From Prevotella sp. (lineage in GTDB: Bacteria > Bacteroidota > Bacteroidia > Bacteroidales > Bacteroidaceae), in the NCBI GenBank assembly GCA_017524385.1, contig JAFWSS010000171.1, positions 1 through 38,241 of the forward strand: DNA of 38,241 bases. The letters run 5' to 3'. A model generated the notes under the pieces. It searched no databases, was not told where the DNA came from, and saw only the letters and a list, made by a program, of their open reading frames with translations. The translations under genes were made by a program, and so were the position numbers. Shown here piece by piece: positions 18,752-24,053 of the stretch (the stretch's first letter is position 1; every line of letters begins with the position of its first letter).

Positions 18752-18806
18752 GAAAGGCGAGACTTGAACCAAAGGGGACGGAGTTTTTGGATCAAGGGGA
18801 CGTGAA

Positions 18807-18955
18807 TCAAGGGGACGGAGTTTTTGATACGTTTCCCCCCTTGTTTTTTTGTTGAATGGAGTAAAACCATTTTTTTTGCAGAAAACAAGACATTATGTTT
18901 TTGATTCCTGGTTGGCCATATATTGCGAGTAGAATCAAAAACCTGTCCCCTTGAT
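18807..18955 (+). mobile_element. REPIN/MITE-like element, copy 1
   Basis: The left end TCAAGGGGACGGAGTTTTTG and right end CAAAAACCTGTCCCCTTGA are imperfect inverted repeats. The inside contains GTTGAATGGAGTAAAACCAT, then TTTTTTGCAGAAAACAAGAC and an ATG. The same internal leader precedes the RAYT start codon at 20170, so this element looks like a RAYT element with the gene deleted. Additional single REP-like units lie just left, at 18773-18788 and 18795-18804. It probably cannot move without a transposase supplied from elsewhere. Confidence 0.7.
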
Positions 18956-18958
18956 TAC

Positions 18959-19234
18959 CTCACATCAAGCGTCACACCATCCGTCACACCACTCGTCACA
19001 CCCTCCAAATGGTCGCGTTCACAACTATTTGAATTACAATTTGTTGAACCTGGTTTCATAGTGTCTGAAAACGTCACACCATACGTCACAAGAAGCGTCA
19101 CACCATACGTCACAAGAAGCGTCACACCATACGTCACAAGAAGCGTCACACCACCCGTCACAAGGAGCGTCACACCATACGTCACAAGGAGCGTCACACC
19201 ACTTGTCACATTCTCTGTCACAACTGCTGTCATT
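18959..19234. repeat. 12-bp GTCACA array A
   Basis: Units of exactly 12 bp begin GTCACA at 18971, 18983 and 18995. After a 66-bp insert (19007-19072) they resume at 19073 and continue without slippage every 12 bp to 19217, 16 clear units in all, with degenerate units at both ends. The variable half alternates mainly between CCATAC and AGAAGC (or AGGAGC), giving a 24-bp super-period. Because 12 and 66 are multiples of three, open frames exist on both strands (VTPYVTRS on plus, GVTLLVTY on minus), but no start site or recognisable protein is present. It begins 4 bp after element copy 1. Confidence 0.85.
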
Positions 19235-19399
19235 TGAAGCACGTTTGGCTGTCGCGCCCCGGCAATGATTTCCTGATATATGATCATTTTTCTGCTTCGC
19301 TAATATTTGTCACAACTACCATCACATCATTTCAAATGACAAAAATAAGACTTTTCCCTCAGTTTATCTTGTCATTTTAATACCAGGGAATCAAAGATG

Positions 19400-19466
19400 T
19401 ATCAGGGGGACGGGGAATCTTGTATCAGGGGGACGTGTATCAGGGGGACGGGGAATCTGATACGTT
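19400..19466 (+). repeat. Variant REP-like units
   Basis: Three copies of TATCAGGGGGACG occur here, two of them continuing GGGAATCT and the middle one cut short before the next begins. They resemble the GGGGACGGAG ends of the neighbouring elements but form a separate sequence type. They abut element copy 2. Confidence 0.65.
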
Positions 19467-19471
19467 TTGGT

Positions 19472-19620
19472 TCAAGGGGACGGAGTTTTTGATACGTTTT
19501 CCTCGCCTGCTATTTTGTTGAATGGAGTAAAACCATTTTTTTGCAGAAAACAAGACACTATGTTTTTGATTCCTGGTTGGCCATATATTGCGAGTAGAAT
19601 CAAAAACCTGTCCCCTTGAT
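19472..19620 (+). mobile_element. REPIN/MITE-like element, copy 2
   Basis: This is almost identical to the element at 18807-18955 and has the same length. Differences cluster just inside the left end (about 19500-19514). Left end, internal leader, the ATG-like junction and right end (CAAAAACCTGTCCCCTTGA) are all kept. Two same-size copies argue for a defined mobile unit and not random decay. Confidence 0.7.
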
Positions 19621-19828
19621 TACATGGCGTCGTATGGGACGGTGAGTACATTCTCGGTAGGGAGCGAGTGTGGCAAGGATGGCTGTCGTCGCTCTTCGAG
19701 TTTTCCTGCCGGATTTTTCTCGCATGCACGCGCGTATGTGTGGGTGTTTTTTTCTTTTTTTGTTTTTTTTCTTCTTTAGGGGGTGCAGGGGGAATTTCTT
19801 CTTTCTTTTGTTTTTTTCTTTTTTTGTT

Positions 19829-20074
19829 GTCACACGGAGCGTCACAAAGGGCGTCACACGGAGCGTCACATCACCCGTCACACCATCCGTCACACCTCTC
19901 GTCACACCCTCCAAATGGTCGCATTCACAACTGATTGAATTACAATTTGTTGAACTTGGTTTCATAGTGTTGGAAAACGTCACACCACCCGTCACAAAGT
20001 GCGTCACACCATACGTCACAAGAAGCGTCACACCATACGTCACAAGGAGCGTCACAAGGAGCGTCACACCACTT
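19829..20074. repeat. 12-bp GTCACA array B
   Basis: Seven units start at 19829 and recur every 12 bp to 19901. A 66-bp insert (19913-19978) follows, then eight units from 19979 to 20074. The insert is the same length as in array A and by eye differs at about 6 of 66 positions. The last unit ends exactly where the RAYT element's left end (GGATCAAGGGGACGGAG) begins. Unit types are mixed: CCATAC, AGAAGC, AGGAGC, CGGAGC. The unit order differs from array A, so they are related but not a recent copy of each other. Confidence 0.85.
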
Positions 20075-20169
20075 GGATCAAGGGGACGGAGTTTTTGTTG
20101 ATACGTTTTCCCCCGCTTGTTATTCTGTTGAATGGAGTAAAATCATTTTTTCGCAGAAAACAAAGCATT

Positions 20170-20406
20170 ATGCCGAGAGAAGCAAGACTACACAGCATCA
20201 CAAGAGTATATCATATGATGCTTCGCTGACAGAATGGTCAAGATTTGTTTCATGATGATGATAGTAGACAACTTGGAGGGCATAGCCCATCTGCCAAAGA
20301 GGAAAAGAAATGAAATCATCGTCTCTGCCCTTCAAAAAAGAGCGAGAATGCGGCAACTTGAGAGAATAACCGGAATCGGTTTCGGTATAATGCAAAGATT
20401 GAAGAC
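20170..20406 (+). pseudogene. RAYT (IS200-like Y1 transposase) remnant
   Basis: The ATG at 20170 opens MPREARLHSITRVYHMMLR, the standard N-terminus of REP-associated tyrosine transposases. A TGA stop follows at 20227, and the same frame continues QNGQDLFHDDDSRQL, again family-like. The catalytic middle, with the HUH motif and tyrosine, is missing. In another frame (from about 20270) EGIAHLPKRKRNEIIVSALQ and MRQLERITGIGFGIMQRLK match the C-terminal helix-turn-helix region of these enzymes. So there is one stop, one large internal deletion and one frame change. It cannot be active. These proteins normally recognise the REP sequences flanking their gene, and such sequences are present on both sides here. 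Confidence 0.75.
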
Positions 20407-20505
20407 AAAAACGTATCAAAAACTCCGTCCCCGTGACCTAAAAACGTATCAAAAACTCCGTCCCCGTGACCTAAAAACGTATCAAAAACTCCGTCCCCGT
20501 GATCT
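20407..20505 (+). repeat. Three tandem 33-bp REP-like units
   Basis: Units at 20407-20439, 20440-20472 and 20473-20505 are identical except for one base near the end of the third (GATCT for GACCT). Each contains CGTATCAAAAACTCCGTCCC, the inverse of the left end of the elements in the island. In the frame of the RAYT C-terminal remnant each encodes KTYQKLRPRDL, a by-product of the 33-bp length. Confidence 0.85.
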
Positions 20506-20546
20506 ACTTGAAGTCTGCCGAGCGTAAGCAACTTCGACCACAGGTC

Positions 20547-22307: not shown

Positions 22308-24053
22308 ATGTCGAAAAAAAAAGACGAATTCATCAATGCCCTCAAAGAAGCCCTGAAAAAGATGGGCATAGACATTGATAATCTCAGCGAAGAGCAAATA
22401 GAAGGCTTCCAAAAAATAGCAGAAGGGAATTTTGACATCGCTGCCATGATGGATAACCAATGGTTTAACTATTCATTGCCCGACTACGGGAAACTTTCCA
22501 AACCCATCGCCGAATGGTTGCAACCCCTGGCGCTGTTTGAAGACTCCTCCGACATCTTCGAAATATGCGAAGAAGCAGAGGAAAAGGCTTCGCAGATGGA
22601 GCGGCAGCAAGTGGTTGACGACCTGAAAAACTTCATCCATGCCTATCTCGCCTTTCTCTACGATAACGACCTTGACACCTTCGACAACTACGACAACTTC
22701 AAGAGCCTTTTCGCCGCCTTCTATCTCATCTCACGCCTCAACCTCACCGAACTCCTCGACACGGTGCTTGAGACACTAAAGCAACCCTACGAAATCCTCA
22801 ACCATATCTACCTCTCCGGCAACGACTTCGTGGGGACGATCATCCTACATGACATTGGCAAAGGACAAATGGACAAACTGGAGGCTTTCCTCCAAGAGTC
22901 AGGATACATCCCCATGGCGAAACCCATCGTCTTCGATGCCTTGGCATTCACCTACAAGTATGAACCAGCACTACGGCTCAAAGCCTTGCACCACATCAAC
23001 AACTACCTGAACAGATGTTTGCAGATTGGGATGGATGGCGGAGATGTCTCCAACGTCAGCCACTACGCCTGCACCCTTGCCTGGGTGCACGCAAAGGAGA
23101 CCCTCCCAATGCTTAGGAAAATATATGAAAGACTCTTCATTCCCAGCATTGAAATCGACGGCATAGAAGAGGTGGAAGACATCATGGGCAACCCGGAAGC
23201 GGAACTTGAAGTCATCACTCCAACAACCATCGACGGAGCCCTCCAAATCATATCTGACTATGACGATTTGGATGATGAAGACGAGGATTTGGATGACGAA
23301 GACGAGGACTGGGACGACGAAGACGAGGACTGGGACGACGAAGACGAGGACTGGGATGAAGACGATGAAGACGATGAAGACGATGAAGACGATGAAGACG
23401 ACGAAGACGACGAAGAGGAAGAGGAAGACGAGGACTGGTACGAAGACGATGAAGACGACGAGGATGACGAAGACGACGAGGATGAAGACTTCACGGATAA
23501 TTTCAATTTCCTTTACGACCCTGATGCCGAAATGAGAAGATGCCAAGTCCAAGTCACCCTTAAAGGCACCCTCCATCAGATGGTTCGCTTGTTGAAAGTA
23601 CCATCCAACATCTATCTGGACAGCCTGGCGCAGTTCATCCTTATTTCCTTGTCATGGAACGAAACGGACACCTGTTGGTTTGAAACTCCCCATGAGATAT
23701 ACACCGATATTTTCCCGGGTCTCATACCCAACAATAAGAAAAAGAAGGAATTAATCGAATTGGACACCAGCATACTGGATGACCTCTTCACGCCACGCAA
23801 TAACAAAGTCACCTTCTTTGTCAAGGAAGGCGACACATTATGGGCATTCGACATCAAACTGAACAAAACAGACTATTATTTCGGAGACGAGAAATCTTAC
23901 GTCGAGCTCCTCAAAGCCAAAGGTCCCGCCCCTGCATCAAGCCTGGACACCATAGAAGATTACGAGAGCAGCCTTGCCGAAGAAGAACTCGAACTGCCAG
24001 ACATAGAAGACATCAATCAAGAAATGAAAGACTTAGAAGATAGCATGTTATGA
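22308..24053 (+). CDS. Protein with a long Asp/Glu repeat tract and pRiA4b ORF3-like C-terminal domain
   Basis: The 581-aa protein has no signal peptide. The N-terminal part (about 1-310) is helical, with MSKKKDEFINALKEALKKMG at the start; I cannot name its family. Residues about 318-395 are almost purely acidic, built of repeated DDEDEDW and DDE units. The part after it (QVQVTLKGTLHQMVRLLKVP, LAQFILISLSWNETDTCWFE) resembles the plasmid pRiA4b ORF3-like domain, whose role is unknown. At DNA level the tract is made of 21-bp and 9-bp in-frame tandem repeats, so its length probably varies between strains. The stop overlaps the next start (ATGA), suggesting translational coupling to the CE2 esterase. 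The domain call is moderate confidence. Confidence 0.75.
   Translation: MSKKKDEFINALKEALKKMGIDIDNLSEEQIEGFQKIAEGNFDIAAMMDNQWFNYSLPDYGKLSKPIAEWLQPLALFEDSSDIFEICEEAEEKASQMERQQVVDDLKNFIHAYLAFLYDNDLDTFDNYDNFKSLFAAFYLISRLNLTELLDTVLETLKQPYEILNHIYLSGNDFVGTIILHDIGKGQMDKLEAFLQESGYIPMAKPIVFDALAFTYKYEPALRLKALHHINNYLNRCLQIGMDGGDVSNVSHYACTLAWVHAKETLPMLRKIYERLFIPSIEIDGIEEVEDIMGNPEAELEVITPTTIDGALQIISDYDDLDDEDEDLDDEDEDWDDEDEDWDDEDEDWDEDDEDDEDDEDDEDDEDDEEEEEDEDWYEDDEDDEDDEDDEDEDFTDNFNFLYDPDAEMRRCQVQVTLKGTLHQMVRLLKVPSNIYLDSLAQFILISLSWNETDTCWFETPHEIYTDIFPGLIPNNKKKKELIELDTSILDDLFTPRNNKVTFFVKEGDTLWAFDIKLNKTDYYFGDEKSYVELLKAKGPAPASSLDTIEDYESSLAEEELELPDIEDINQEMKDLEDSML
23262..23490 (+). repeat. In-frame coding tandem repeat (acidic tract)
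   Basis: Three copies of a 21-bp unit (GACGAAGACGAGGACTGGGAC type) are followed by runs of a 9-bp GACGATGAA-type unit and more degenerate copies. All unit lengths are multiples of three, so gains or losses keep the frame. On the opposite strand the same bases give long poly-Ser or Phe/Val frames, which are by-products. Confidence 0.85.

Follow-up and report, generated by a model that had tools for sequence, protein, structure and literature searches.

In bacteriophage lambda, iterons and an AT-rich tract are located in the middle of the O gene, according to the record annotation and the accessible part of PMC7466680. The iterons of lambda and of the Stx phages are about 18 bp long, follow each other in 20–24-bp steps and number 4–6, as far as the available portions of the sources describe them. 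Ectopic lambda origins arrest lambda, as stated in the accessible parts of PMC4488673 and PMC3349717. Within the Bacteroidales, the BrickBuilt MITE of Porphyromonas gingivalis is a multi-copy intergenic tandem-repeat element; it has 23-bp units and inverted-repeat ends, and the available part of the report mentions no parent initiator gene (PMC4596501). Intragenic iteron arrays in initiators of Bacteroidota were not found in the literature, of which journal coverage was partial. Here we describe two repeat arrays of a Prevotella genome that we interpret, with a probability of roughly 80%, as iterons left in two broken copies of a lambda-O-like initiator gene that occurs in multiple copies. They share with BrickBuilt the multi-copy, intergenic character, but their units are 12 bp long, are composed of a fixed and a variable half, and derive from a gene.

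The stretch of DNA that was analysed, 38,241 nucleotides of contig JAFWSS010000171.1, is referred to as the window in this text. It contains 27 GTCACA-N6-GTCACA pairs, all on the plus strand and all within 18971–20068, compared with none in 100 dinucleotide shuffles of the window. This bears out the two arrays of 16 and 15 units listed in the first-pass annotation: array A consists of 16 exact units (3 at 18971–19006 and 13 at 19073–19228), array B of 15 (7 at 19829–19912 and 8 at 19979–20074). Both are bipartite, with two half-arrays and a step of 78 bp between the starts of the hexamers that face each other, which means that the 12-bp phase is shifted by 6 bp in mid-array. The phasing, previously described as exact throughout, is therefore exact within half-arrays but not across them. 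Sixteen of the 20 elements that we collected have the exact 78-bp step; the exceptions are C226, G200_C49, G325_C252 and G200_C6 (79). Read on the gene strand, 98% of 242 units have the conserved word TGTGAC with A or G as the next base. A CRISPR array was rejected, as it had been before, given the 12-bp units with a 6-bp variable half; the unit is too short and there are no spacers. The two copies can be divided into the following parts:

18959–18970, minus strand: degenerate unit of array A, 3' of the 3-unit half-array on the gene strand
18971–19006, minus strand: 3' half-array of array A, 3 units of TGTGACR-N5; cut off at about 18957
19007–19072, minus strand: core of array A, separating the half-arrays (78 bp from one hexamer start to the facing one)
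19073–19228, minus strand: 5' half-array of array A, 13 units
19229–19420, minus strand: 5' leader of copy A, common to copy C38; has the TAAAATGACA signature and is without the N-terminal domain
19624–19713, minus strand: beginning of the region for the C-terminal domain, left over in copy B and truncated at about 19624
19714–19828, minus strand: A-rich tract in copy B (plus strand: T-rich), proposed unwinding tract
19829–19912, minus strand: 3' half-array of array B, 7 units
19913–19978, minus strand: core of array B, between the half-arrays
19979–20074, minus strand: 5' half-array of array B, 8 units, with truncation at about 20074

Arrays A and B are two truncated gene copies in one intergenic stretch, which is bordered by genes that we take, from their translations, to be pnp-like and ispD-like. 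Matches to these two genes lie 78 bp apart in genome G319 and 188 bp apart in G355. In both there is no array in the interval, so that most of the 1.9 kb in the window was likely acquired. The two matches are separated by 3.6 kb in G062 and lie on different contigs in G200. In the latter genome, a broken gene with a 42-bp repeat (L341 1547–2200, G200:C22) adjoins ispD, which is the array locus of the window; this gene presumably represents another initiator type, DUF6291-like. Three related dispersed repeats abut the arrays at 18800–18957, 19467–19624 and 20069–20506, the mutual resemblance being seen at 18800–18897, at 19467–19562 and from 20069 onwards. They have short matches elsewhere in the same genome, and the last of them includes a 33-bp unit repeated three times. 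We assume that they are REP/RAYT-like. The suspected association of the arrays with RAYT elements is borne out to the extent that these repeats flank them, but Pfam confirmed no transposase at 20234–20524. Further repeats in the window are the heptanucleotide AGATTGA (about 21 repeats at the contig end, 38093–38241) and Asp/Glu-rich tandem repeats within a 630-aa ORF (23270–23490).

The window arrays correspond to the central part of a gene on the minus strand, intact paralogues of which exist in the same genome. The array is present on eight contigs of the source genome, and intact minus-strand genes are found on C148 (368 aa), C129 (340 aa) and C226 (324 aa); other genomes contribute L196/G325 (350 aa) and G200_C49 (312 aa). 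Relative to the 368-aa protein, copy A corresponds to residues 114–202 (51% identity) and copy B to residues 135–270 (47%). The intact gene encodes, in this order, a winged-helix-like N-terminus, a VTxx linker composed of half-array, core and half-array, a Lys-rich segment and a C-terminal domain with the motif YWTE...MRFE...TW. The Lys-rich segment is encoded by an A-rich tract, which comes after the array on the minus strand in all copies that keep it and has 58–72% A+T over 110 bp (80–89% in the best 35 bp; window, 47%). In copy B, the frame between tract and array is lost. Without both coding domains, the window copies should be inert as genes. A relic of the VT-rich tail of a minus-strand gene had been among the earlier suggestions; the intact paralogues support the relic and its strand, but the array is the middle of the gene and not its tail. 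The first-pass annotation had also asked whether such arrays belong to an intact gene elsewhere, and these paralogues show that this is largely the case.

Searches with the intact proteins suggest a relation to phage replication proteins. With Pfam, two of them gave winged-helix matches near residues 31–86 that stayed below the cut-offs, and otherwise chance models. Their C-terminal domain matches phrog_19415 (E 5e-17 and 6e-17), and the N-terminal part has weak PHROG matches to replication-initiation families, one of them O-like (E 4e-4 to 4e-3). In alignment A1, phrog_19415 was matched by all 13 proteins, and replication-initiation, O-like or DnaD-like loader families by 1 to 4 of the 13 each. 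Similarity to lambda O was not detected by hhalign (A1 against lambda O, E 0.85), and the eight matches of query A2 to solved structures (E 0.38–0.89) were not meaningful. A VirE/DUF3987 protein, the parent proposed in the first-pass annotation, was discarded, no such model being matched by the two intact proteins in Pfam up to E 1.

The repeat word is conserved at the DNA level. Of 231 in-phase units from 20 elements, 223 have an exact TGTGAC, whereas 96 different spacers occur among them. (RUG112, the contig of G355_C70, and RUG178, with an unrelated TGTGACCTCACG array, were dropped before the word counts; G355_C70 has TGTTAC in five further units.) Codons were counted in 235 units picked by protein (VT in phase). 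In 231 of them, T is the last base of the codon that precedes Val, over 16 amino acids; in 13 genes of the window, T ends 9–41% of the codons for those amino acids that can have it. Val is encoded by GTG in 227 units (GTT 6, GTA 2) and Thr by ACG in 164 and ACA in 71. ACC, the commonest Thr codon of the 13 window genes (279/478), does not occur in these units. The third base of the codon after Thr is not fixed (T 119, C 70, A 27, G 19). The fixed T before Val, together with the choice of Val and Thr codons, indicates that the conserved word spans codon boundaries. Unit number differs between matching loci of related genomes (7+7 in C132 vs 7+5 in G200_C19; 10+6 in C194 vs 8+7 in G200_C56), a variation that the first-pass annotation had proposed to look for. 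Sixteen half-array pairs show 3 hexamer and 110 spacer differences, but this contrast mostly reflects unit reshuffling, and the case for hexamer conservation is not based on it.

Array-only copies show that the conservation of TGTGAC persists after the reading frame has been lost. In 11 such copies (with A and B of the window counted separately), 146 of 147 units are exact, with 55 spacers, compared with 77 of 84 in nine copies that have the N-domain, where the misses are mostly in C1, C226 and G200_C49. C1, C226 and G200_C49 form a subfamily with a degenerate array, although C226 and G200_C49 are intact. Ten array-only copies have retained the tract; in nine of them it is out of frame with the array, G200_C56 being the exception, while 8 of the 9 N-domain copies have the in-frame value in common. 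The different value of G325_C252 is due to a one-base difference in the anchor sequence, and its ORF is open. In three array-only pairs with 95.5–96.5% identical flanks, the hexamers differ at one site in 38 aligned units, compared with about 9 differences expected by arithmetic from the flank divergence. Their spacers differ at 49, which suggests unit reshuffling rather than point mutation, and part of the spacer variation may be older than the truncation. The earlier suggestion of a binding-site array for a repeat-reading protein gains indirect support from this conservation of DNA sequence beyond the loss of the frame.

The source genome carries six array-only copies and four with the N-domain. 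A protein search of this genome revealed two other, array-free fragments (C30 and the more distant C68) but no N-terminal-only fragment at E 1e-3. Seven of the 11 array-only copies are preceded by a TAAAATGACA-like leader, and one internal deletion is common to C38 and the window copies, at two loci. C148 adjoins cas3, cas8c and cas7 of a type I-C CRISPR-Cas system (L036 1206–6680), and C129 adjoins type III restriction-modification genes (L034 8077–12302); the neighbours of chromosomal copies look by eye like ordinary chromosomal genes. No helicase or loader gene was seen beside the Prevotella copies, intact ones included. For each of the C148 and C129 loci, one flank could be found in G200 (93% and 92%), where the gene is absent, though the contigs continue for about 9 and 6 kb. 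The shared deletion, the leader and these empty loci allow a spread or retention of array-only forms. As G000 and G200 are drafts with an estimated contamination of 6.6% and 10%, copy numbers are approximate. At G200:C54 6975–7215, a piece of about 38 bp of the C148/C129 gene region occurs 4–5 times at steps of about 51 bp.

Neither the arrays nor the gene are confined to one assembly, as the first-pass annotation had considered. A three-unit pattern is present in 27 of 398 sampled genomes of the genus (source included), and the protein family is encoded in all five that were checked among the 26 others; many of the 21 further ones show other repeat words. A protein match at E 1e-10 was obtained in 8 of 120 sampled genomes (source included), some of them matched by the C-terminal domain only. 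Pattern scans without the protein returned at least 120 stretches in viral contigs and at least 113 in genome contigs, mostly unrelated repeats, from which the loci L196, L206, L279 and L290 were kept. A different 12-bp array, GTCACAGAAAAC repeated, was noticed in G332, G312, G187, G205, G073, G065, G296, G066, G295 and G356, and GTCACAAGTCTT-type arrays in other genomes of the genus. G319_C29 (L329 5200–6211), an intact-looking relative of 230 aa, has no array; a stretch similar to the A-rich tract lies upstream of it in reverse orientation. Upstream of the L196 start (upstream of 2122, minus strand), an inverted hexamer pair GTCACA...TGTGAC is located at 35 and 49 bp, in the likely promoter. 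This fits autoregulation in L196 but not as a general feature: of seven other starts, only that of G200_C49 has a hexamer upstream (one, at -98).

Relatives of the protein are encoded by phages. A tblastn search against phage records matched nine, by the C-terminal domain only (16–21% of the query). In Riemerella phage CRP5, the homologous gene and a replicative helicase gene overlap, and in Cellulophaga phage phi13:2 the overlap is with the gene of a COG1484 DNA replication protein. Both homologues contain a 12-bp array, TGATACRGTTYY-type in CRP5 and AGTAACAGATAC in phi13:2, and MT839942 (a record marked unverified) has 11-bp steps; in phage 11b, no array is clearly visible. An alignment-based scan of viral contigs yielded 295 relatives, the best 80 of which were used for array counts. 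(With the single L036 protein, the viral scan gave 31 pattern stretches, none of them confirmed.) Of 69 distinct viral ORFs that have the strict C-domain motif, 30 contain an array of three or more tandem copies, always upstream of the C-domain, compared with 4 of 358 other ORFs of 400–1300 bp from the same loci (Fisher 9e-23). 'Distinct' here means different last 120 residues, and some of these ORFs are still close relatives. The remaining 39 have no array by the tandem-repeat test; when ORFs were defined more loosely, 32 of 77 had one. The best periods were 8 (1 ORF), 9 (2), 10 (5), 11 (13), 12 (3), 15 (1), 21 (2), 22 (2) and 24 bp (1); some arrays of period 8 and 9 resemble runs of Lys codons. 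The periods of 10 or 11 bp, seen in 18 of the 30, do not fit codons and so cannot be same-frame protein repeats; they suit sites on one face of the helix. Viral L398 has a bipartite array (4 + 5 of 12-bp steps, 65 bp apart). According to Pfam, seven ORFs downstream of viral relatives include two clear DnaB proteins (L355, L408), one just under the DnaB_C cut-off (L365), three matches to nSTAND3 (one above the cut-off) and one ORF without a match. A loose Walker-A pattern is present in 18 of 55 downstream ORFs. The N-terminal domains of the viral relatives are of several different kinds.

Could the arrays be nothing but a protein repeat? A VTxx linker in a phage-derived gene might have grown by slippage, with the window copies as pseudogene debris; the regularity of the DNA would be a side effect of selection on the protein and of recent duplication. 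Slippage does happen, as the differing unit numbers of related copies attest, and among the matches listed, many unrelated proteins have VT repeats encoded by this hexamer. Protein selection does not, however, explain the fixed T before Val or the missing ACC, and the hexamer stays constant while spacers vary, the word is exact in out-of-frame copies and there are relatives with 10- and 11-bp arrays. We therefore regard this explanation as improbable. A small transposable element, in which gene and array go together, the array is the binding site of the transposition protein and array-only copies are non-autonomous derivatives, seems more improbable still, to the point that we would be surprised to see it confirmed. 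It would account for the multiple copies at different loci, for the single internal deletion that A/B of the window and C38 share at two loci and for the absence of the C148 and C129 copies from the matching G200 loci. But the intact protein has no transposase match in Pfam or PHROG, the array lies in mid-element, inverted ends and target duplications were not seen by eye, and the phage homologues sit in replication operons.

We prefer an initiator gene because the repeat word is conserved as DNA, arrays occur at the same place in phage relatives, intact paralogues exist and helicase or loader genes lie beside some of the phage relatives. By analogy with lambda O/ori, we propose that the TGTGACR repeats are bound by the winged-helix-like N-terminus of the protein whose coding sequence contains them. 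Binding would lead to opening of the A-rich tract, which adjoins the array on its 3' side, and a helicase or its loader would be recruited through the C-terminal domain. Array and tract of an intact gene would then be intragenic iterons and an unwinding tract, i.e. a putative origin. Binding, strand opening, helicase recruitment and origin activity are what we infer from the comparisons above.

For the array-only copies, one may speculate that they are kept because they act in cis, as chromosomal origin-like sites to which O-like initiators bind. They could then be either decoys that titrate the initiator of invading phages with matching iterons, or minimal elements that full-length copies help to spread. 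We consider this rather unlikely, but several observations argue for it: array-only copies outnumber N-domain copies six to four with no N-terminal-only fragment, the hexamers remain exact after frame loss, C148 and C129 lie beside the type I-C cas and type III restriction-modification genes and are absent from the G200 loci, and ectopic origins have been published to arrest lambda. Against it speaks that no phage with TGTGACR iterons was found among the phage records and viral contigs scanned.

If the initiator interpretation is correct, it would provide a role for the phage family PHROG 19415, and origins of Bacteroidota phages could be found by a 10–12-bp array inside a gene. The same letters would serve as binding sites and as the code of a protein linker, in units of codon size. 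With several copies in the chromosome, one may also ask whether bacteria keep broken phage-type origins, perhaps as decoys.

The closest parallels are found in phages. The PHROG 19415 proteins of CRP5, phi13:2 and viral contigs have a homologous C-terminal domain, and in CRP5, phi13:2 and some of the viral ORFs a tandem array of 10–12 bp occupies the same linker, with L398 being bipartite like the window arrays. They differ from the Prevotella gene in their repeat words, their location in replication operons and their varied N-terminal domains. As in lambda O/ori and the Stx-phage homologues, to the extent that the available sources describe them, repeats and an A+T-rich tract lie in mid-gene between N- and C-terminal parts, and relatives differ in the number of units, which lengthens the linker of the protein. 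In lambda, according to the same partial sources, O is immediately followed by a helicase or loader gene, as is the homologous gene in some of the phage relatives here. Unlike lambda O, to which it has no detectable sequence similarity, the Prevotella gene is stand-alone, chromosomal and multi-copy, and its arrays consist of 6–18 codon-phased units of 12 bp in two half-arrays.
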